Assembly: GCA_002709505.1 (NCBI GenBank) | Contig: PARB01000030.1 | Coordinates: 55,816 to 119,815, forward strand | Source: Paracoccaceae bacterium | GTDB lineage: Bacteria > Pseudomonadota > Alphaproteobacteria > Rhizobiales > Stappiaceae | Length of the DNA: 64,000 nt | Reading direction: 5' to 3' | Shown: positions 50,422-63,520 of the stretch, piece by piece | Layout of the letters: the number at the start of each line of letters is the position of its first letter | Position numbering within the stretch: the stretch's first letter is position 1 | Program-made: the position numbers and the translations under genes | The notes under the pieces: model-generated | What the model was told of the DNA's origin: nothing | The model's input: the letters and a program-made list of their open reading frames with translations, nothing else | The model's database searches: none

Positions 50422-50498
50422 CGGAGTGTAGCGCAGCCTGGTAGCGCACCTCGTTCGGGACGAGGGGGTCGCAGGTTCAAATCCTGCCACTCCGACCA
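50422..50498 (+). tRNA. tRNA-Pro (anticodon CGG)
   Basis: 77 bases including CCA. Acceptor CGGAGTG/CACTCCG, D-arm GCGCAGCCTGGTAGCGC, anticodon stem CCTCG/CGAGG with loop TTCGGGA (anticodon CGG), T-arm GCAGGTTCAAATCCTGC and discriminator A. GC content falls immediately after it and accessory genes begin, so it may be the attachment site of a genomic island. No copy of its 3' end was found elsewhere in the window. Confidence 0.96.
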
Positions 50499-50855: not shown

Positions 50856-51509
50856 TCAGGCAACGAGCGCGTAGAGAGGATCGGTGGGCACTGTCTTTTC
50901 GAGAACGCTTCCGGTGATCCCGCTTGCCTCCCGCAGCCCGTCGATCATCGCTTCGTCTGTTTTGAACAGCCCCGCGTAGGTCATCACCCGACCGAACCGC
51001 ATCGGGGTTCCGATCGTCTCGGCCTTGCAACGCGCCCGCTGAAAAAGCCGCGCCATCGTCGCGTCATACACTGAGACAATCTGACGAAGACGGATCAGCG
51101 ATCCGATTTCCGCCATTCCGAGGAGAAGCTCGGCGGTCACTTCATTGACCGCACCGGCTCTCCTGGCCTTGCAGGCATAATCCGGATCGATCGAGAACCG
51201 CGAACTCTCCCAGATCAACGGATCTGCAATTGTCAGATCGTCCGGGAGCAGTCCCGAAAACACGTCTCGCAACATGTTCGGCCCCGTTGTCGGCAGCAAA
51301 CGAACGCTGCCCCTCACATCGCCGTTCACTGGATCGATCGACAGCATATAGAGCGGATTCTGATCGTCGAACTCGTCGATCTCCCACCCGTCCTCGATGC
51401 GAACGTCCCACCGCAACCGATGATGGAACACCTCGGCACGAATGGTATGCATCCGATCGATTTCATACATATGACGCAACCGATCACAACCCTGAATAAG
51501 TCTGATCAT
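50856..51509 (-). CDS. luxI: LuxI-family acyl-homoserine-lactone synthase
   Basis: 217 aa, ATG 51509 with GGGGAG six bases upstream. Family invariants are visible: RAEVFHHRLRWDV (Arg, Phe, Trp near residues 24-35), an acidic cluster (DEFDDQN) before PLYML, GSVRLLPTTGPNML (Arg near 70) and WESSRFSID (Glu, Arg near 100). The enzyme makes an AHL from SAM and an acyl-ACP or acyl-CoA in the cytoplasm. It lies 111 bases downstream of luxR on the same strand, and a lux-box-like dyad with a plausible -10 lies between them. Base composition is lower in GC than the chromosome to the left. Confidence 0.93.
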   Translation of the reverse strand: MIRLIQGCDRLRHMYEIDRMHTIRAEVFHHRLRWDVRIEDGWEIDEFDDQNPLYMLSIDPVNGDVRGSVRLLPTTGPNMLRDVFSGLLPDDLTIADPLIWESSRFSIDPDYACKARRAGAVNEVTAELLLGMAEIGSLIRLRQIVSVYDATMARLFQRARCKAETIGTPMRFGRVMTYAGLFKTDEAMIDGLREASGITGSVLEKTVPTDPLYALVA

Positions 51510-51620: not shown

Positions 51621-52337
51621 TCAAATTAGCCTCAAACGCAGCGCTCTTGTTACGGAATGCGTTGTATTCACGGCATTGAGCTTCAGACGTGAGAACTCCA
51701 TGTACGATTGAACCGTTCCACGGCGAATTCCCAGAATGATCGCAATCTCCTCATACGTTTTCCCCTCAGAAGCCCATTTCAAACACTCGATCTCTCGCTT
51801 CGTAAGGCGGGGAATAACTTCGCTAACTCGTTCAACTCTCAAGATCATTTCATGAACGACATTCGCGATAAGCTGGAAATCACGCATATAATGTGTTCGC
51901 AATCTGATCCACTCTCGATCTGTTTCCTCGCTGGTAATCGACAGCATGGCTGCCTCTCCGTTTACACCCCGGATTGGCATCGTCATGCCTTGCCTACCAA
52001 CACCAAACTCCTGGGCTTCGCCAAAGAATGTTTTCAGAGGGCCACTCGTCTTGTCGAAAGTCGACCAATCGGTCGGGAGCATGCGTTGCAACCCCGCACT
52101 CAAAACAGGGTCGATGGAGACATAGTCATTCTTCTTGTAATGCTGAACCCATGCATCATCATACGTTACGGCAAGATAGGGCTCCCGAGCAGTCAACTCA
52201 GGAATTCGCGCAGCAAAGTACACTACGTTCTTCAATCCGTAGGCGGCCCTGATCCGATCAAGAAGCGCCATTCCTTCATTTGGGTTGGCTATCGTGTTGA
52301 GCTGATCAATCACCTCTGAGAAGAACACATTTTTCAT
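51621..52337 (-). CDS. luxR: LuxR-family quorum-sensing regulator (autoinducer-binding domain plus HTH)
   Basis: 237 aa from ATG 52337 (MKNVFFSEVIDQL); a GTG seven codons earlier is possible. The N-terminal autoinducer-binding domain carries the typical pocket order (YDDAWVQHYKKNDYVSIDPVL: Trp, Tyr, Asp-Pro) and GMTMPIRG...AMLSIT. The C-terminal HTH is LTKREIECLKWASEGKTYEEIAIILGIRRGTVQSYMEFSRLKLNAVNTTHSVTRAL. It is paired with the downstream luxI. A 59-aa gene missed by the ORF track lies 50 bases upstream on the same strand. Confidence 0.94.
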   Translation of the reverse strand: MKNVFFSEVIDQLNTIANPNEGMALLDRIRAAYGLKNVVYFAARIPELTAREPYLAVTYDDAWVQHYKKNDYVSIDPVLSAGLQRMLPTDWSTFDKTSGPLKTFFGEAQEFGVGRQGMTMPIRGVNGEAAMLSITSEETDREWIRLRTHYMRDFQLIANVVHEMILRVERVSEVIPRLTKREIECLKWASEGKTYEEIAIILGIRRGTVQSYMEFSRLKLNAVNTTHSVTRALRLRLI

Positions 52338-52387
52338 TCTCACCCCCACCAGCTTCACCTAGGAGTGGAAAATTTAGCACTATCGCG

Positions 52388-54028: not shown

Positions 54029-54811
54029 TCACCAAGCCGTCCAGCCACCATCGACAGGCAACGTAGCCCCATTGATGTAACTTGCCGTTGGGGACGCGAG
54101 AAACGCGACAACACCGCCGATCTCGGATGCTTTCCCAATGCGCCCCAACGGGATCTTCTTCTCAAGACTTGAGATCAAATCGGGCGAACGTCTCTGAGTT
54201 TCTGGCGAGGGGAAAGCGCCTGGGGTCAGAACATTGAAGCGAATGCCCTCCGGCCCGAATTCACAGGCTGCATAACGAGTCCATTGGATGAGTGCCGCCT
54301 TGGCTGCGCCGTAGAAAGCGGCGTTTGCTCCATGTTTGTCCGGATAGACCCGAAGATCGGGACTTACGACGCCATACATGGAGGCGATGTTGACGACGGC
54401 AGCATCACCTCGCTTAGCTCTTGCGGCGCGCAGGTTCGGTAATGCACGCCTCACCAGCCTTTGCGCTGCGACGACCGCCACCTCATAACTTTCTCGGTAA
54501 CCGTCATCATCTGCAACCTCAACTGCTCCAGCCCCCCCCGCATAGGCGTTGTTGACCAAGATATCGAGGGGCTCTGCTCCAAGGCGCCCAAAAAATTCAT
54601 CGACCTGATCGACGTGGGTGATGTCGAAAGCGGCAGGAAAGGCCATGAACCCCTCCTTTGCAAAGTCCTCGGCAAGACGAGTAACCGTGGCCAAGTCCCT
54701 TCCGTTCAAATAAACCCCGGCACCGGCCGCCATCAGCTCTCGCGCAATACTCAGGCCAAAATAGCCAGTGGCGCCGGTTACAAGTGCCGTCTTGTCAGCA
54801 AGTGAAAACAT
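54029..54811 (-). CDS. SDR-family oxidoreductase in glycan operon
   Basis: 260 aa. Classical SDR: nucleotide motif TGATGYFGLSIA near residue 12, NNAYAG near 87, catalytic Ser in NIASMYG, YxxxK in FYGAAKAAL, and C-terminal INGATLPVDGGW. It is an NAD(P)-dependent oxidoreductase, probably of a sugar or sugar-nucleotide intermediate given the neighbours. It is the last gene of the minus-strand operon, 15 bases after the aldo/keto reductase. SDRs of this subtype accompany nonulosonate and SpsF-type genes in flagellin- or capsule-glycosylation clusters. Confidence 0.92.
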   Translation of the reverse strand: MFSLADKTALVTGATGYFGLSIARELMAAGAGVYLNGRDLATVTRLAEDFAKEGFMAFPAAFDITHVDQVDEFFGRLGAEPLDILVNNAYAGGAGAVEVADDDGYRESYEVAVVAAQRLVRRALPNLRAARAKRGDAAVVNIASMYGVVSPDLRVYPDKHGANAAFYGAAKAALIQWTRYAACEFGPEGIRFNVLTPGAFPSPETQRRSPDLISSLEKKIPLGRIGKASEIGGVVAFLASPTASYINGATLPVDGGWTAW

Positions 54812-54826: not shown

Positions 54827-55756
54827 CTACGCCCGCAGCCATCTAGCGGGGTCCAGGGTTTCTGTCCCAAGGTGCGGTCGTCCCGCCCGTATCCGGACAA
54901 GATCTCCCGAGGTCAAAGGCGCCGTCCGGCAGTTTTGCAGGTTCTCACGCATCTGGTCTACGGTTTCGGCCCCAACCACAAGACCATCGACCCAATCCTG
55001 TGCCCGGCCCCAGGCGAGGCACAGATCCTGCACATTCCGCCGCCGCCCCGCCCGAACCTCCGACAACAGCCAGCTTCGAACATTCCCTCCATTGGCAACA
55101 TGTGCGCGGTGCCAGTGGTCTGGCTTATCGGAAAGGAACAGCCCCTGCAGCAAGGAACTGCGCCCGTGGATGGTCAACGGCCGTTGTTTCCTGATACGCT
55201 GAACCTCCGGTAGCGCTCTGTCCCATCGATGATCGAGAATATTGACCGGCAACTGGATATGTCGGACGCAATCCTCAGAAAGAGCCTGCAAAAGTTCTTC
55301 CGGCGACTGCACCGACACACCAAACGCGGAAATACCACCAGCCTCAAGTTCGCTGTGCATGATGTCTGCAACTAGGCTGCCTTCCAGGCGATAATCTTCC
55401 CAGCGGTGCAGAAGGACCGCGTCGAGCCTGTGTCGTTTTAGGGACCGGCGCGACTCGGTGAGGCTGGAGCGCACGAGATCTGCCAGCTTAGAGGCATCTC
55501 TCCCCGACCCTTCATGCGTAAGGCGAAGCGGCAGCAACTTGGTTGCCAGTTTGACCGGCCAACGGCCGATAGCTTCAAGCGCCGTCCCGATGGCTTCCTC
55601 GCTTCCCGGATAGGCTCGCGCCGTATCTATCCAGCCGACACCAGAATCCCTAGCAAGACACAGGATCCTGCATACCGTCTCTGGAACCGGCGCTCCGGTC
55701 GCGTTGGCAATGCCATAGGGCGCGCCGAACTGGGCCCCACCGACTACAAGTTTCAT
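54827..55756 (-). CDS. Aldo/keto reductase in glycan operon
   Basis: 309 aa. AKR barrel: VGGAQFGAPYGIAN, WIDTARAYPGSEEAIG (catalytic Asp and Tyr), Lys in KLATKLLPL and LLHRWEDYRLEG (His). The subtype with the opening GGAQFGxxYGIAN is that found in surface-polysaccharide gene clusters next to SpsE/NeuB- and SpsF-like genes. It would reduce a sugar carbonyl with NADPH. It starts two bases after the end of the NeuB-SpsF fusion gene, so it is translationally coupled. Confidence 0.92.
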   Translation of the reverse strand: MKLVVGGAQFGAPYGIANATGAPVPETVCRILCLARDSGVGWIDTARAYPGSEEAIGTALEAIGRWPVKLATKLLPLRLTHEGSGRDASKLADLVRSSLTESRRSLKRHRLDAVLLHRWEDYRLEGSLVADIMHSELEAGGISAFGVSVQSPEELLQALSEDCVRHIQLPVNILDHRWDRALPEVQRIRKQRPLTIHGRSSLLQGLFLSDKPDHWHRAHVANGGNVRSWLLSEVRAGRRRNVQDLCLAWGRAQDWVDGLVVGAETVDQMRENLQNCRTAPLTSGDLVRIRAGRPHLGTETLDPARWLRA

Positions 55757-55758
55757 TG

Positions 55759-57582
55759 CTATAGCCCCTGCTCTGGGCGCACGGTCTCCCCGACCCTGCC
55801 TTTGGGAAGACGCGTCTTGAGTTTCAACTCCTGGATAAGATCCTCATCCGACTGATACTTCACAAGCATCCTGGTGTTGGAGCCGGCAAGATCCGGCTGC
55901 CGGTCCAGTATCGAGAACACATTTTCCAGAGTGTGCGGAAGCCCAGCTTGCCCAAGCTGGTCAAACAGCGCCACGAACAGATCGTAGTCTTCCTGGTAAT
56001 CCATCGTGAGCCGATAGTCCCTGACAAGGTGTGGCGGCAGCGTGACGACATTCACGGAAAACACGTCGGGATTGTTTTCGAAATACCAGTTCATATATTC
56101 CGACATCGGCGCACCCCCGAGCCCTTCGAAGACCCGGCGCATTGCTTCGACGTTGATGATATGGGCACCTGTTCCCACCGCATCATTTTCCGCACGGGTA
56201 AAGTCGGCACCCGTTCTAAAATGGCTTTCCAGGAGATAGTCCGCGATTTCCGGAGAAATGACGGGATTGTCCCCGGTCGCACGCACGATTACATCAATCC
56301 CCTCGTCGCGGGCAAGATCGAGATAACGCTTCATCACATCGTCCGGGTCTCCTTGGAAAAACCCGCAGCCCATTTTTCGAGTGGCCGTCTCCAGAACAGC
56401 ATCCTGATTAAGGGTCGACGTCGCAAGATAAACCGCATCAACCCGTCGGATCCGCTGGCAGTTTTCAATGCAGCGTTCGATCATCGGCTGGCCGCCGAGT
56501 GGTAGCAGGGCCTTATTCTCCAGGCGCGAGGATTTCATCCGGCAGGCGATAACGGCCGCGATCCGCGCGGTTCTGAAGGAGGATTTAAAGAAAGCATCAC
56601 CCCGACCATGGGTACGCGCCAGAACTTGGCCGTCGCCCTGCAGATCACGGATCTGGTCAGGTGCAAGCGGGAAGCCGCCCTGACGACGAAAAATCAAATC
56701 CCCGGCGCCCACGAGCGAACCCTCGCGCTTATTCCTTGCACAGCAAGGCAGCAGACGGCTTTTGGTCAAATAGGCTTCTTCGGCACGGTTGATGAACTCC
56801 GACGAGAACGACTGCACCACCGCATGCAGATGCTGCTCCATCTGACGGACTTCCAAGGGTTCCAGCGCAGACATTGCGTCATACTCCGTCTCCGCCCGGG
56901 AAAGACAGACATGTTTCTCCACGCTTCGACATCCTAGCGCGCAAGCGATCGCCGGCAAGACCAAGGCATATGGATCGGTGGCACTGATGTGGTCTGCAAT
57001 GCCCAGATCAATGTCAGGAAACGCGGCCCGCAACACGGCAATCTTGTTGAGCTGGCAGTCTTCGATAGCAGTAGGATAGCTTTGAAAGCCGATCTGCAAC
57101 GTTGTGTTGGTCCTCAAGAAGCCAACGTCGGCGAGTCTATCCAGAATGCGTTCGATCTCACTGATTTCAAATCCGGAGACATTTGCAATCAGGCGTGTGC
57201 CGGCGAGATCGAACGCCTGCAGCAAATTTAGTACCTCTTCATTCTGGAGCATCGACGCCTGCAGCTTTACCCCGAATACCCTGTCCCTATTATCTAGGAA
57301 GACGGCAATGCAGTTGGCGTCCGCCATTTCGAGCCAGACATCGTAAAAGTGCGACGCACGCGCGATGATCCGGCCCCAGGTTTCGCGCGGTATCTCAAGT
57401 TTCCGGTAGATGTCGAAAAACTCAAACGATGGCGTCGCCAGCGTCTCCGCTGAAATAGGGTGGAACTTTAACCCTTTACGCTGGGTTTCTTCGCTGGGAG
57501 CCAGATGATCCATCAGGACGAACAGCCTGTCCGGATCGCCCGCGTGAACACTGGCGGTCTCAAAAATAAGGTAAGGACTCAT
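55759..57582 (-). CDS. Fused NeuB-like synthase, SAF domain and SpsF/CMP-sugar cytidylyltransferase
   Basis: 607 aa. Residues about 1-260 are NeuB/SpsE-like, condensing a sugar with PEP to a 2-keto-3-deoxy acid: KFHPISAETLATPSFEFFDIYRKLEI, GFQSYPTAIEDCQLNKIAVL, GIADHISATDP and VEKHVCLSR. Residues about 285-335 are a SAF/antifreeze-like domain. Residues about 340-600 are an SpsF/NeuA-like cytidylyltransferase (AVIACRMKSSRLENKALLPLGGQPMIE, VRATGDNPVISPE, DYRLTMDYQEDYDLF). One polypeptide could therefore make and CMP-activate a nonulosonate- or Kdo-type acid. The ATG overlaps the upstream stop (57579-57582). The NeuB part is shorter and more divergent than canonical NeuB. Confidence 0.87.
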   Translation of the reverse strand: MSPYLIFETASVHAGDPDRLFVLMDHLAPSEETQRKGLKFHPISAETLATPSFEFFDIYRKLEIPRETWGRIIARASHFYDVWLEMADANCIAVFLDNRDRVFGVKLQASMLQNEEVLNLLQAFDLAGTRLIANVSGFEISEIERILDRLADVGFLRTNTTLQIGFQSYPTAIEDCQLNKIAVLRAAFPDIDLGIADHISATDPYALVLPAIACALGCRSVEKHVCLSRAETEYDAMSALEPLEVRQMEQHLHAVVQSFSSEFINRAEEAYLTKSRLLPCCARNKREGSLVGAGDLIFRRQGGFPLAPDQIRDLQGDGQVLARTHGRGDAFFKSSFRTARIAAVIACRMKSSRLENKALLPLGGQPMIERCIENCQRIRRVDAVYLATSTLNQDAVLETATRKMGCGFFQGDPDDVMKRYLDLARDEGIDVIVRATGDNPVISPEIADYLLESHFRTGADFTRAENDAVGTGAHIINVEAMRRVFEGLGGAPMSEYMNWYFENNPDVFSVNVVTLPPHLVRDYRLTMDYQEDYDLFVALFDQLGQAGLPHTLENVFSILDRQPDLAGSNTRMLVKYQSDEDLIQELKLKTRLPKGRVGETVRPEQGL

Positions 57583-60500
57583 CCCGAAAAGTTCCTTGCA
57601 ACGTGCCCCTCAACCGGCTTCGGATTCTGCTTTGACCAGTTTTCCACCTCCTCAACCAGCGCAGCGACAATCGATGACTTGTCTCCCGGGTCACCTCTCA
57701 GGAGGCGAACACACTCGTACCAAACATCCGAGCGCTCCGGTCCGATCTCCCGCCACCAAGTTTCTCCGTGATTGCTGAACAGCAGCCCCGGCGTTCCGGT
57801 CGCACCAGCGAGTTCAATGACGGCGGTACCCGGGCCAATGACGAGATCCAGATTGGACATCAGCGCGGCAACGCTATCGAAATCGTTGTACTGGTCGATA
57901 TCCTCGAGATTAATAATCTTACCCGGGTAGCGTTCACGGACCCAGTCTAGTTCTTCCTCGCAATCATCGTATTGAAGGTTCACGAAGGTAATGTCTTTGA
58001 GGGCAAACAGGGGTTCCAGTTCCTCGATGTCGAGATAGTGTACGTTGCGCATCGCATTTGTGAGTTGGCTGCGCCAGCTTAATCCTACCAATCTAGTGTT
58101 CTTGGGCAGTCGCTCGCGGAATGCCGAGGCCTTTACCGGATCAGGCTTCAGATAAGGCGTGCGTTTAAAGTCACTATAATCCTTGCGGAAATGCCAGATA
58201 ATTTCGGTAAAAAGCATAATTTTGTCTGCTTTTTCTACCGCTTCATGGCCATTGTTATCCAAAACCCGCCGTAAATCTGCGCCGGGTAGACGGTCAAATT
58301 CTCGATGCGGGAACTCGGCGCTGAACTCACGGGTTCTCCGCACCGGCGTCAGCCGGACTTGCGGGAAGGACCTGGAAAGAAGCGGCAGCAGTCGAGGGTC
58401 GCAGCACAAGCTAAAGGTGTCGTAGCCAAACCTATCACCGATCTCCGACAATAAAACGCTGTAGCGTATTTCCTCCGCTGGGCCGAAATCGCAGATAAGA
58501 AGGAGATCCTCCATCTGGAGCTCTTCTGAATTCTGGTATTTCTCCGCGCCATAATAAGCGATGAGCCGGTCTCGCATAGCGGTGTTGAGAAAGCAGCGGA
58601 AACCCCTTTCGATCTGCCGCAGCCCGAAGAAGATCGGCATGACCGGCCCTTCTAGCGGCAAGTCGATTTGGAGGTCTACACTCTCTAGGAAGTGCTGATG
58701 AGCAGTCTCAAAATGCCCCAAAATCTTTAGCAGGCGAAGCAGTTCCGTGTAGGTTGCCTTGCAGGGATCGCGAGCGACCGCCTGCTCCATAACCTGCACG
58801 GCACGCTGATAGTCGCCCACGCCCGCGAGGGCACGGGAAAAGGCCACCAGCGCGGTGTCGCTCCTGTCTCCCATTTCAATCAGTTCGGTCATGATTGTCA
58901 GGGCTTTTTGAGGTCGGCTCAGTTCCAGCCAGGCATTGGCTAGCCTAACCGACCGGGAGCCATCCATCGCAAGAATTGCATGGGACAGCGCAGCAGCATT
59001 TGACCGACCGAGAAATTCATTCAATCGAGCAAGCGTACGATTGACACGATCCGGGTTGAGAACCAGCTGAAGCGAAAAGGATTCTAGGATGTCTTCTAGC
59101 GTCTCATCGCCAGGCGTTGTTGACAAACACTCCACGTGATAGTTCACGCCAGCATTGTTGTGCCCTGATATATTCGCATACTTGAGCATGTCGGACAGGA
59201 GCCGCACAGAAGTTGTGTCGAAGGTCAGATCGGCGATCTTGATAGCAGGTAAAAGCAGGCCTGAATGGAGGTTCCCATTCAGCATCAGAGTGAGAACATG
59301 GTCCAGCGCCTTCTCATAATCCCTATGTTCGACAGCTCTTTCGCACATTGAATAAAGCAGCGCGACTTGTTCAAGGGTTTGAGGCAAAGGCTCGGAGGGT
59401 GCAGGTCCCCCGTCGTCATTGTCATCTGCAGCCAGGCCCGTGCGATTGTACTGAGCCTCCATCAGCTCGAACGATTTAGGGACTTCCTTGAGTTGCTCCA
59501 ACAGCCAGGCCCATTGGATGGCATCAGTATTCTTCGGACGAATTTTCCCGAGCCGTGTCAGAAAGTCGGCGTAGATATCGGGCGCGATGAACTGTCGGAC
59601 TTTGTTCAGGAATCTATTGCGTGCGTCGTCCGAATTCAGAACACCGCAAACCGCGTGAAGAAGGACAGACTGGTAGATCCTGCAACCAGGCGCCTTGAGC
59701 GTGCGGTGAAACGGAGCCTGGCAGATGAGCTCGTCAAAGTTCTCATGTGCCTGGCCCTTTTTCGCGAAAAGGAACGCCGGCCAATAGCTTGACTGAACTG
59801 TCGATTTCAGAACGTCCTTGCGCGGAGTCTCGTTGACCAGACTCTTGTGCGTCTTCTGGGTGATTACGATCCTGTCTGCAGATATGCGGCGGATCGCGGC
59901 CATCAAGCCGATATAGCTGTCGTCCAATGCGCCGAGGTATTTGGCATAAATAAGATAGGACCCTGCAAACAATTCAGCGAGGGAGAGCTGTCTCTTCCGC
60001 CGCAAAAGTGTAGCGCGGTCGTCGGTTAAGCCCCAGCCGGCATAGAACGGCGCGCCGAAAACCGTTACCTTCTTGCCTCTGAGCAGAGCCTCCAGACCGG
60101 ACAGAGACGTAACCACATATACATGATCAATTCCGTCGAGAAATTGGGGTAATCCTTCTTCCGGCGAGGCCAGACGGCATATTTTCTGTACCCTCGAGAG
60201 CCGCGTCTTACTCTTGTGCAGACCCTTATAGATCTCTGGATGCGGTCGGTAGATTATCTCGCTGGTCGGATTCTCGAAGGCTGCAATCTCGATGATGTCT
60301 TCCATGGTCCAGCCATCAACATTGCCCTTGCGCATGGACATGTCTTTGTCTACCTGGCCGATCACCGCAACACGCTTTTTGCCCGTGAACTTTTTGAACG
60401 GATCATTCTCGGTGGTGAGCGGCGGATTGTACTTGGAAATCCCAAGACGGCAAAGAAGTGAGATCAACTCTTCCGCCTGTTGCAGTAACTTCGGATTTGA

Positions 60501-61115
60501 CTGGAAATCGTAGTGATTTAGGACATCCTCTAAATCCGTTTGTGCCGAATGGTCATAGTGCAGAACGCCAGAGTAATCGAACACAAGAGAATACGGTGTC
60601 GTGTGGATGGCACCCAATTGGGCGGAGCGGACAAATCCATCTTCTACACGAGCATAGGCAATGTTCTTTTTCTTCAAATACGACAAAAGAAAATAAGGTT
60701 CATTATAACCCCAAATATATACGATTTTTGGCTTCTCAATCATCGCTCGAATAACGCCGGCGAAAAAGAAATAATTTTTCTTCATCGGCGCAAAAGCGCA
60801 TCTGTAATCGGAAAGGAAGTCTGCTACAAAACCAAATTTCCAGTCATTAAAACCAACCAACAGGGCGATGGGCTTCTTCCCACCTGGCTCCTTCCAGCTT
60901 TCCCCGACCAAAAACATCTCCTCAAGCCCGACCGGCGCTGGAGACAGTTCATGCGGATTGATCAGCGTGTAAGGGTACTCGTACTTGTCAGTTTTTCCCT
61001 GCCTTCTGATACGAAGGATGGCGCTCCGCAGGAACGTCTTGATCCGTTCTGGCTCGCCAAACTTATCTTGGAGGGAGGTGCGAAAGAACTTCTGAATGAC
61101 GCTCAGGTCTGCCAT
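57579..61115 (-). CDS. KpsC-like capsule glycosyltransferase fused to TPRs and a C-terminal GT-B-like domain
   Basis: 1178 aa. Residues about 80-400 are a capsule-synthesis (KpsC/WcbA, PF05159-like) domain: [10 protein letters not shown] near 157, YRPHPE at 289-294 and [30 protein letters not shown] near 337-366, typical of beta-Kdo transferases. Residues about 580-840 form TPR-like helices ([33 protein letters not shown]). Residues about 860-1150 resemble the TPR-linked GT-B module of glycan or protein glycosyltransferases ([54 protein letters not shown]). No transmembrane segment. It is the first gene of the operon that also makes the presumed CMP-sugar. Cytoplasmic transfer to a lipid or a protein such as flagellin is possible. 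Confidence 0.87.
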   Translation of the reverse strand: [1178 protein letters not shown]

Positions 61116-61850: not shown

Positions 61851-62180
61851 TCACCCCGCCCTATCACCACCGCCTCCCCCATTCCGCGTAAGCACCTGAT
61901 CGATCCGGCGGTTGAGTTCCGCCTGCCCCTGCCGAATGTCCATCAAGAGCTCACGTAACGCATCTTGAGACCGGTCGTGATCGTCGCGACGCACATACTC
62001 ATCACGAACGCGGTTTATCCGCTCGTGGAGTCGGTCATCACCTTCGCGCGAATGGCGAAGCGCATCCTCGTCTCCTTTTCGGATAGTTGCCAGCATGTGA
62101 CGATCCCGCATCAGCAACCCTCCAATGACGGTTGCAATACCGATCGCTACGGTGACAATCCACTTAAGATCATCTCCCAT
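61851..62180 (-). CDS. Membrane-anchored coiled-coil protein, holin-like phage protein
   Basis: 109 aa from ATG 62180 (MGDDLKWIVTVAIGIATVIGGLLM), with GGGGAC six bases upstream; its first base overlaps the o-spanin stop (TGATG). One N-terminal transmembrane helix is followed by a long charged helical region (GDEDALRHSREGDDRLHERINRVRDEY ... LLMDIRQGQAELNRRIDQVL) and a glycine-rich end. Similar proteins in alphaproteobacterial prophages are annotated as holin-associated or hypothetical. It is the last gene of the lysis block. A pinholin or accessory role is possible. Confidence 0.7.
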   Translation of the reverse strand: MGDDLKWIVTVAIGIATVIGGLLMRDRHMLATIRKGDEDALRHSREGDDRLHERINRVRDEYVRRDDHDRSQDALRELLMDIRQGQAELNRRIDQVLTRNGGGGGDRAG

Positions 62181-62452
62181 CACTGTCCCCGCTCCCCATG
62201 CCGCCGGCATTCCGGCCCGGTCCACACCTGCGCGTTGCACAGCCCCGCCGCCGTGACATCGATCTTGCGTTGATCCCGCGCCGTCGCGCCGCGCGCGCCG
62301 ATCAGATCGGTGCCGACGACGACGCGGATCGTCTCACGGATCTCGGCTTTCGCACCGACCGGTGCCGTGGTCATACAACCCGCCATCGTCAAGGCAGCGC
62401 CGAATAGCGTCGCGGCCGTCACGAGCCGCGTTCTTGAGGTCTTCCATGTCAT
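62180..62452 (-). CDS. o-spanin-like (Rz1) small lipoprotein
   Basis: 90 aa from ATG 62452 (MTWKTSRTRLVTAATLFGAALTMAGCMTTA), with GGAG seven bases upstream. The lipobox (TMAGC) gives a lipidated Cys near residue 26, and the mature part is short. The gene overlaps the i-spanin gene by 119 bases in another frame, the classic Rz/Rz1 arrangement. By family it would form the outer-membrane half of a spanin that fuses the membranes at phage lysis. Confidence 0.75.
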   Translation of the reverse strand: MTWKTSRTRLVTAATLFGAALTMAGCMTTAPVGAKAEIRETIRVVVGTDLIGARGATARDQRKIDVTAAGLCNAQVWTGPECRRHGERGQ

Positions 62453-62633
62453 CTTTCGTCTCCTGCGCAGCCTCTTCGACAGCCTCGTTTCCCACCCGCC
62501 ATTCGGCAATCTCGACGTAAGCCCACAGCGCCAGCATCCCGGCGAGCACCAGCGCCGGCCAGCGCAACGCCGGCACCTTCCAGACCGTCGCCAGGACCGT
62601 CAGCAGCGCGCTCACGTCCAGCCCTCGAACCAC
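62334..62633 (-). CDS. i-spanin-like (Rz) protein
   Basis: 99 aa. One N-terminal transmembrane segment (WPALVLAGMLALWAYVEIA) is followed by a charged helical periplasmic part (VEEAAQETKDDMEDLKNAARDGRDAIRRCLDDG), the expected Rz layout. It follows the endolysin gene, overlapping it by 22 bases, and its 3' part overlaps the lipoprotein gene. Sequence is not close to lambda Rz, so the call rests on topology, position and overlap. Confidence 0.75.
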   Translation of the reverse strand: MVRGLDVSALLTVLATVWKVPALRWPALVLAGMLALWAYVEIAEWRVGNEAVEEAAQETKDDMEDLKNAARDGRDAIRRCLDDGGLYDHGTGRCESRDP

Positions 62634-63520
62634 CGCCGCACCGGCGCCGGCAGGCTGTCCCGGATCCGACCCCGGTTCGCCCAGGCGAGATAGGCGAGCA
62701 GGATCACGACGCCGGTGGTGCCGAGCGCATAGATGATCGTGGTCCAGTCGATGCCGACGGTCTCCTCGAGCGCCACGCCGGCAGCTCCGACGCCGCCGAC
62801 GACGCCCGTACCGCCCTTAGCCGCCGTCTTGCGCTCAAGCGCCCGCTTTGCCGTGGCGCGCGTTGCCGGGCCGAAAATGCCGTCAACGACCAGCGGCGGG
62901 TGGTGCGCCCGCTGAAACGCCTTCGTCGCGGCGCGCATGTCGCTGACGTCGTGCCCGAGCCGCCGCAGCAGCTCCGCATCCTCATGCGTCTGGTCGATGG
63001 AATCGGTCTTGCCGAGATCGCGCGGCGCCGGGCCGACGCCGATGTACTCGCCGGTCTCGAGCAGATGCGCCTCTTCCTTCCGCCGGCGCACCAGTCCGGG
63101 CAGACGGCGACCGCCGGCCGTGTTGTAGTTGTCGCGGAGGATCGCGGCCGCGCGCTGCACGTTGCCCGCCTTCAGCGCCTGCGCCCACCGCCATTTCAGC
63201 GCGCCGGGCCCAAGGTTATAGGTGACCGAACAAGCCGCATCGAACTGGTACTGCGGCAGCGGGCCGAAGGCTTGGCGGACCGCCGCGCCATACTCCTCGG
63301 CGATCAGCGCGCGCAACACCTGCAGCGCGCCATCCTTGGTGATCCGATCGCCCATCCGCAGGTCGCGGCCGTAGCGACCGCGCCACCATGCGGCGAAGAC
63401 CCGGCTGCGCATGGTGAAGCCGTAGCCGATGGTGAGCACACCGACCGGATCCCGGTAGGCGCTGGACACAAAGCCTTCGTGCCCGGCGATGAACGCCAGG
63501 CCGCTTTCGCTGATTTTCAT
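62612..63520 (-). CDS. Phage endolysin: GH24 muramidase with peptidoglycan-binding domain and C-terminal TM
   Basis: 302 aa, ATG 63520. Residues about 1-150 are GH24 (T4-type lysozyme): catalytic Glu in AGHEGFVSSAYRDPVGVLTIGYGFT, with Asp and Thr of the E-D-T triad, then FDAACSVTYNLGPGALKWRW. Residues about 180-240 are a PG_binding_1-like repeat (LLRRLGHDVSDMRAATKAFQRAHHPPLVVDGIFGPATRATAKRAL). A C-terminal transmembrane helix (TTIIYALGTTGVVILLAYLAWA) precedes a basic tail. It cleaves murein for host lysis. Membrane anchoring at the C-terminus is less usual than an N-terminal signal anchor. Confidence 0.92.
   Translation of the reverse strand: MKISESGLAFIAGHEGFVSSAYRDPVGVLTIGYGFTMRSRVFAAWWRGRYGRDLRMGDRITKDGALQVLRALIAEEYGAAVRQAFGPLPQYQFDAACSVTYNLGPGALKWRWAQALKAGNVQRAAAILRDNYNTAGGRRLPGLVRRRKEEAHLLETGEYIGVGPAPRDLGKTDSIDQTHEDAELLRRLGHDVSDMRAATKAFQRAHHPPLVVDGIFGPATRATAKRALERKTAAKGGTGVVGGVGAAGVALEETVGIDWTTIIYALGTTGVVILLAYLAWANRGRIRDSLPAPVRRWFEGWT

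Follow-up and report, generated by a model that had tools for sequence, protein, structure and literature searches.

KpsC, the dual β-Kdo (3-deoxy-D-manno-oct-2-ulosonic acid) transferase of group 2 capsules (GT107), is a two-module enzyme that makes the poly-Kdo linker (PMC10148158, PMC12887879). Its mechanism has been described (PMC10148158), as have the roles of its catalytic nucleophile, base, HP motif and tyrosine (PMC10148158, PMC12887879). The same superfamily includes KpsS1 (GT118), a retaining pseudaminic acid (Pse) transferase of the Acinetobacter baumannii capsule in which the WbbB/KpsC-type glutamate is missing and a YE motif is used, and it follows that this superfamily can use CMP-nonulosonate donors (PMC12887879). 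In WbbB and in KrkA of Escherichia coli K13 (Kdo transferase plus ribosyltransferase), a Kdo-type module, which in KrkA belongs to GT140, is fused to a second transferase (PMC12887879). Caulobacter FlmG combines tetratricopeptide repeats (TPRs) with a GT-B glycosyltransferase (GT) domain and modifies flagellin with Pse (PMC7591256). Prophages of A. baumannii carry capsule modifiers (Wzy, acetyltransferases) that change the capsule of their host (PMC9676051, PMC13228068). Here we describe P0001, a prophage-encoded protein of a Paracoccaceae bacterium with a Stappia-like genome (contig PARB01000030.1, C1 below). In it three lines of work that are mostly pursued separately meet: the ulosonate transferases of KpsC type, the TPR transferases of FlmG type and the alteration of host surfaces by phages. 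The 64,000 nucleotides analysed, positions 55,816 to 119,815 of the contig, are called the window, and coordinates without a contig or locus name refer to it.

P0001 resembles each of these systems in part. With KpsC it shares the fold, the QxxxD motif, the EDGF glutamate, the HP motif and the SKYN tyrosine, but it has one module instead of two, forms a separate clade with its relatives, is fused to a TPR-GT-B half and is linked to Pse genes. With FlmG and the TPR-GTs of flagellin loci it has in common the TPR plus GT-B architecture and a NeuB gene nearby; the sequence homology of its GT-B part is to the flagellin-locus proteins of its own genus, and FlmG itself is likened by description. It differs from FlmG-type proteins in its additional KpsC module in front, in an altered GD motif and in its location, which is a prophage (or, in relatives, a capsule (K) locus) and not a flagellin locus. 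The superfamily, the tie to capsules and the connection with pseudaminic acid enzymes are shared with KpsS1. Membership of GT118 was nevertheless rejected, because P0001 keeps the EDGF glutamate (E158) that GT118 is without. In comparison with KrkA and WbbB the partner domain is a different one. Compared with the A. baumannii modifiers, likewise prophage cargo, P0001 appears to be a bimodular ulosonate-type GT with its own CMP-sugar genes, beside a LuxRI pair. We consider it moderately probable, from sequence and models, that P0001 is a two-module K-antigen transferase carried by a temperate phage as cargo for lysogenic conversion.

The KpsC-type module of P0001

The open reading frame (ORF) lies on the minus strand, where it runs from 61115 to 57579; the plus strand there is full of stops. 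Three parts can be distinguished in the protein of 1178 amino acids (aa), a KpsC-like module, a helical middle with weak TPR likeness and a GT-B domain:

57579..61115, minus: KpsC-helical/TPR-GT-B fusion (P0001), 1178 aa (ORF translation, Pfam, PDB relatives, AlphaFold2 (AF2) model)
59871..60908, minus: KpsC-like (GT107-type, KpsC-C side) transferase module, residues ~70-415 (Pfam, PDB, residue table, tree)
58956..59828, minus: helical linker region, residues ~430-720 (AF2 secondary structure, low confidence)
58551..58949, minus: TPR-like helical hairpins, residues ~723-855 (weak Pfam TPR, AF2 model)
57621..58550, minus: GT-B domain of FlmG/OGT/GT9 kind, residues ~856-1165 (alignment and model)

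The original prediction, made from the letters of the window, had proposed this three-part ORF. We find the same architecture, uninterrupted, in nine further sequences, and P0001 is therefore not an assembly artefact.

The KpsC motifs that had been noticed in the N-terminal third are borne out by a match to Pfam Capsule_synth (PF05159, 1e-28) and by the closest solved relatives of the module, which are KpsC chains (PDB, E 5e-41). The best Foldseek match of the full-length model is the β-Kdo 2,7 transferase of T. dismutans KpsC (E 1e-10), with TM-scores of only ~0.5 by target for this low-confidence model. All of the KpsC catalytic residues that were checked are kept. In our alignment with E. 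coli KpsC-N, from which the residue correspondence is taken, Q254 and D258 (Q-xxx-D) align with Q156 and the nucleophile D160, E158 of the EDGF motif with the base E66, and Y229 with the SKYN tyrosine Y134, and H292-P293 forms the HP motif. The Y-x-P-H-P, TSL and GFxxWK signatures are those of the KpsC-C (2,7-transferase) side.

P0001 holds a single KpsC module, not the tandem 2,4 plus 2,7 pair, and two positions set the fusions apart. Position 290 is Arg in all ten fusion sequences (R290 in P0001) versus Lys in 89 of the 92 aligned tandem KpsC modules, and position 138 is Asn, Thr or Ser in nine of the ten (N138 in P0001) versus Lys or Arg in KpsC-N modules. A tree built from 165 domains places all ten fusions on one side of a branch (Shimodaira-Hasegawa-like approximate likelihood ratio test, SH-aLRT, 98). 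Their clade belongs to the KpsC-C-side supergroup, where it adjoins single-module proteins of Rhizobiales, and is placed outside both KpsC-N and KpsC-C.

The middle region and the GT-B domain

A TPR array had been proposed for the middle of the protein, and this was partly right: AF2 places helical hairpins at ~707-855, but residues 430-700 are modelled poorly, as low-confidence helices. The TPR signal in the sequence is weak and short (residues ~725-792), with every match below the Pfam cut-offs.

The full-length AF2 model has a predicted local distance difference test score (pLDDT) of 64, and residues 700-1178 were therefore modelled alone, with a pLDDT of 81 and a predicted template modelling score (pTM) of 0.78. 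The predicted structure agrees with the GT-B-like domain foreseen for the C-terminal third and finds matches among GT-B enzymes of the OGT/GT41 and GT9 types (E 1e-6 to 1e-4); it also resembles phage TPR proteins (best TM-score by target ~0.65-0.70). The region has no Pfam match, GT41 and GT9 profiles included, and its likeness to these families is one of fold alone. A sequence profile of the domain found nothing in the PDB, and in viral contigs nothing beyond loci already known. Stand-alone TPR-GTs of 607 aa from the genus do align with the C-terminal part (hhalign 99.8%, E 7.7e-29), with ~31% identity in the GT-B domain. Next to these proteins are encoded NeuB, a CMP-sugar synthetase and three flagellins, of which one is confirmed by Pfam, a neighbourhood of the kind known for FlmG (PMC7591256).

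Genes downstream of the fusion

Three further genes follow P0001 on the same strand:

55759..57582, minus: NeuB-SpsF fusion, ulosonic-acid synthase plus CMP-ulosonate synthetase (Pfam NeuB 3e-15, CTP_transf_3 6e-23)
54827..55756, minus: aldo/keto reductase (Pfam 4.5e-22)
54029..54811, minus: short-chain dehydrogenase/reductase (SDR) family oxidoreductase (Pfam 4.7e-41)

The stop codon of P0001 and the start codon of the NeuB-SpsF gene overlap as ATGA (GGGATGAGT), a coupling that had been pointed out before and is present in the sequence. The aldo/keto reductase and SDR genes come after gaps of 2 and 15 bases. All four genes are open and closely packed, and we infer that the cassette is co-transcribed; promoter and terminator scans gave results no better than those for shuffled sequences.

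The cassette lies in a prophage

Between 50 and 62 kb of the window the GC content drops from ~0.66 to ~0.51-0.58, and a tRNA-Pro(cgg) gene (50422-50498) ends at the edge of this low-GC island. The features that frame the cassette are as follows:

50452..50498, plus: attL, 47-bp repeat at the 3′ end of tRNA-Pro(cgg) (repeat match)
50856..51509, minus: LuxI-type autoinducer synthase of the prophage (Pfam 1.8e-40)
51621..52358, minus: LuxR-type regulator of the prophage (Pfam 2.9e-32)
61851..62240, minus: small phage protein, lysis region (PHROG 462/6664)
62612..63520, minus: phage endolysin, lysozyme (Pfam 4.4e-27, PHROG 7 2.5e-47)

The attR copy of the 47-bp repeat is found on contig C79 (8956-9002), without a tRNA gene and beside a tyrosine integrase. 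Because the attachment site is duplicated at the tRNA and an integrase lies beside attR, P0001 is in a prophage integrated at tRNA-Pro. Its cassette is placed between attL and the LuxR-LuxI genes on one side and the lysis genes on the other.

A closed genome of the same genus (G010) has a 48.6-kb prophage at the same tRNA (817529 to 866082), complete with terminase, portal, capsid and tail genes. Its integrase is 98%, its LuxR 90% and its LuxI ~89-91% identical to those of the P0001 prophage. Its slot between the lysis genes and LuxRI encodes a GT2, a protein of 1130 aa that includes a GT-D-like domain, and a KpsC-type protein of 385 aa that is 38% identical to P0001 residues 78-395. On host contig C96 (L146, 7125-15452) there is a second prophage-like lysis region, with 80% DNA identity, in which the accessory place that corresponds to the slot is taken by an N6-methylase/Eco57I-like protein. 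Since the G010 prophage holds a different KpsC-type transferase and C96 an N6-methylase, we conclude that the slot is an accessory place where KpsC-type transferases recur. GT-D-like-domain proteins were seen both in the G010 slot (L167:7485-10877, 1130 aa) and on a viral contig (L115:3181-6276, 1031 aa).

Prophage-borne LuxI/LuxR systems have been described in Phaeobacter (PMC13345283), and the capsule of Rhodobacter serves as a quorum-regulated receptor of the gene transfer agent (PMC10218006). The adjacency of the cassette to LuxRI suggests that it may be under density control, and its place in this slot makes lysogenic conversion linked to quorum sensing an idea that can be tested.

Full-length relatives and their genomic contexts

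At least ten full-length fusions were counted, P0001 and nine others. Five of the others are from bacteria: a Sinorhizobium chiapasense plasmid, Roseibium, a metagenome-assembled genome (MAG) of Methylibium, Stappia stellulata SN27-3 (G005) and G010. Four are from phages, namely RHph_X2_30 and the viral contigs L113, L114 and L115. In Roseibium and Stappia the fusion loci contain Pse genes (dehydratase, aminotransferase, PseG-, acetyltransferase- and PseI-like) together with KpsM/T/E-like genes; PseG/PseI-like and KpsM/T/E-like genes also accompany the fusion of S. chiapasense. The Methylibium locus has PseG/PseI-like genes, ATP-binding cassette (ABC) genes, a Poly_export protein and a two-module KpsC homologue. 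Of the genes tested from KpsE to PseC in S. stellulata, none besides the fusion could be recognised as a glycosyltransferase. The open-access literature searched yielded no description of the fusion, which is weak evidence of novelty.

These contexts bear on the earlier proposal that P0001 assembles a new Kdo- or nonulosonate-linked glycan. A link to ulosonic acids is supported, and the bacterial relatives are located with pseudaminate genes and mostly also with capsule export genes; a new glycan of this kind is possible.

The phage copies are found near tail and endolysin genes, in L113 also near an integrase. That of RHph_X2_30 is near lysin and tail genes, and directly upstream of the fusion L113-L115 encode a tail fibre similar to exopolysaccharide (EPS) depolymerases. 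In the tree they branch apart, grouping with the S. chiapasense gene at support 100 and with Methylibium at support 85, while P0001 stands alone. Among L113, L114 and L115, the three copies that could be compared, all three parts of the fusion have ratios of non-synonymous to synonymous substitution (dN/dS) of 0.05-0.11, values that are approximate because synonymous distances are near saturation; these copies are under purifying selection. A search of plasmids for close relatives of the L114 fusion gave only short matches, in Sinorhizobium.

An exchanged module in sister Stappia K loci

The K loci of S. stellulata SN27-3 and G010 carry a pair of fusions (L030:11809-15381 and L028:14866-18447) that break at the domain boundary. 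Residues ~41-400 are 88-100% identical per 40-column window, whereas identity from ~440 to ~1048 is mostly 5-48% and rises to 65-72% at 1049-1128. The break comes at about codon 414, and the flanking DNA is 89% and 87% identical. Because the N-module and both flanks are conserved and the part between them is divergent, the C-terminal two-thirds of the fusion have been exchanged within an otherwise conserved K locus. Such an exchange would fit a C-terminal part that sets the antigen type. It offers a concrete hypothesis for change of capsule type, and the two strains are a natural pair for enzymology, with one constant and one exchanged module.

In S. stellulata, a DUF2793 protein is encoded between pseB and the fusion (L030:15398-16489), and a protein 91% identical to it occupies the corresponding place in G010. 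DUF2793 is a domain of the RcGTA tail fibre (PMC10883770).

A proposed K-antigen transferase as phage cargo, and the alternatives

According to the explanation that we favour, the N-module would most likely use a CMP-activated donor to attach a Pse- or Kdo-like ulosonic acid, with retention, through a covalent Asp258 intermediate. The TPR-GT-B half may add the partner sugar or hold the acceptor. NeuB-SpsF would make the CMP-ulosonate, which the aldo/keto reductase and SDR may help to supply or tailor, and the product would leave the cell through the KpsMTE exporter of the host. In this way the cassette probably changes the polysaccharide on the surface of the host, and related phages that recognise the host polysaccharide would then fail to bind. 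The host encodes KpsE, KpsM and KpsT proteins 92.7-97.7% identical to those of S. stellulata, and its contig C92 holds three Capsule_synth genes. The original prediction had the domains largely right, and neither of the two findings that it had named as refuting it, a C-terminal part without a glycosyltransferase fold or a KpsC part lacking active-site residues, came about. It had overlooked that the gene is prophage cargo, that it has relatives in phages and that a motif of the GT-B domain reads AE.

Several observations weigh against a K-antigen transferase in phage cargo. The contig ends with the window, leaving the head and tail genes of this prophage unseen, and the host assembly is 85% complete, with the prophage split over contigs C1 and C79. 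The NeuB part of NeuB-SpsF is divergent. A scan of viral contigs with NeuB-SpsF gave no relative, and phage records gave one partial match only, to the SpsF half, in a marine virus. The GT9 matches of the C-terminal model are moderate (TM-score by target 0.51-0.56). Finally, P0001 alone has A880-E881 (codons GCG GAG) where all 12 aligned relatives have (G/S)D. The Asp of this GD motif occupies what we take, from WaaC, to be the position of the catalytic base of GT9 enzymes, and because of the change to AE the C-terminal module of P0001 may be altered or inactive.

This change, confined to one copy, and the low GC content relative to the host are what a decaying cargo would display, that is, a capsule cassette that was acquired horizontally and now serves no function in this prophage. 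We think decay very unlikely, for the four reading frames are all open with little space between them, G010 keeps a slot of the same kind and the phage relatives are under purifying selection. A function on proteins is less easily set aside. P0001 could be an O-glycosyltransferase whose TPRs bind flagellin or a virion protein, as those of FlmG would, while its two modules build a glycan containing ulosonate. Its C-terminal part is indeed homologous to TPR-GTs that stand alone beside NeuB, CMP synthetase and flagellin genes in the same genus, FlmG provides a Pse-transferring example of the architecture (PMC7591256), and the phage copies adjoin tail or lysis genes. Yet most bacterial relatives of the full fusion are located with ABC polysaccharide-export genes, the flagellin loci examined in the genus use a separate stand-alone protein, the N-module belongs to a family of capsule enzymes and the TPRs are few and weak, which together make this explanation an unlikely one.

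Alternatively, P0001 might be a variant β-Kdo linker enzyme that replaces or extends the poly-Kdo linker of the host KpsC, on which the C-terminal GT would begin the capsule. Retention of every KpsC catalytic residue checked and the 2,7-transferase-type signatures would suit such a role. It sits poorly, however, with a clade apart from KpsC-N and KpsC-C, the three Capsule_synth genes already present on C92, the Pse genes beside the relatives, the one module found here against the two of the linker enzyme (PMC10148158, PMC12887879) and the deviating R290 and N138; we judge it quite unlikely. The K-antigen explanation, for which the prophage genes of A. baumannii and the Pse transferase KpsS1 are precedents, can also be carried further. 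The fusions might form a family of modular K-antigen polymerases, in which a constant KpsC-type ulosonate module is joined to a TPR-GT-B module that can be exchanged and that determines the type of capsule. The fusion would have been captured by temperate phages at least twice, probably three times, here next to the LuxRI pair of the phage and with its own CMP-ulosonate pathway, and lysogens would display a new ulosonate capsule in a density-dependent manner. As a whole, this larger proposal is doubtful, and we offer it tentatively.

Other features of the host and of related loci

In the K locus of the host (L158/L159, contig C55:34517-47928), homology to S. stellulata stops within the pseB-like gene, ~20 codons short of its end. 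Directly after this break come a gene like those of tyrosine integrases and phage-like DNA that resembles C79, and the host capsule locus seems to harbour a second prophage. The other genes of the host Pse locus are absent from the assembly, through either deletion or an assembly gap.

A second TPR-GT (785 aa, L027:18620-20977) is encoded immediately downstream of the S. chiapasense fusion, and a BNR-repeat protein 4.6 kb downstream of the same fusion. The latter is resembled (28% identity) by a 663-aa protein adjoining the RHph_X2_30 fusion (L026:23349-25340). Genome G001 encodes a 1305-aa relative (L032:9246-13163) with a KpsC module, a long middle and a different C-terminal part, which does not match the GT-B domain of P0001. 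On further viral contigs (L119-L125), divergent KpsC-like modules are located near the C-terminus of proteins of ~500-940 aa, several of them with EPGF in place of EDGF.

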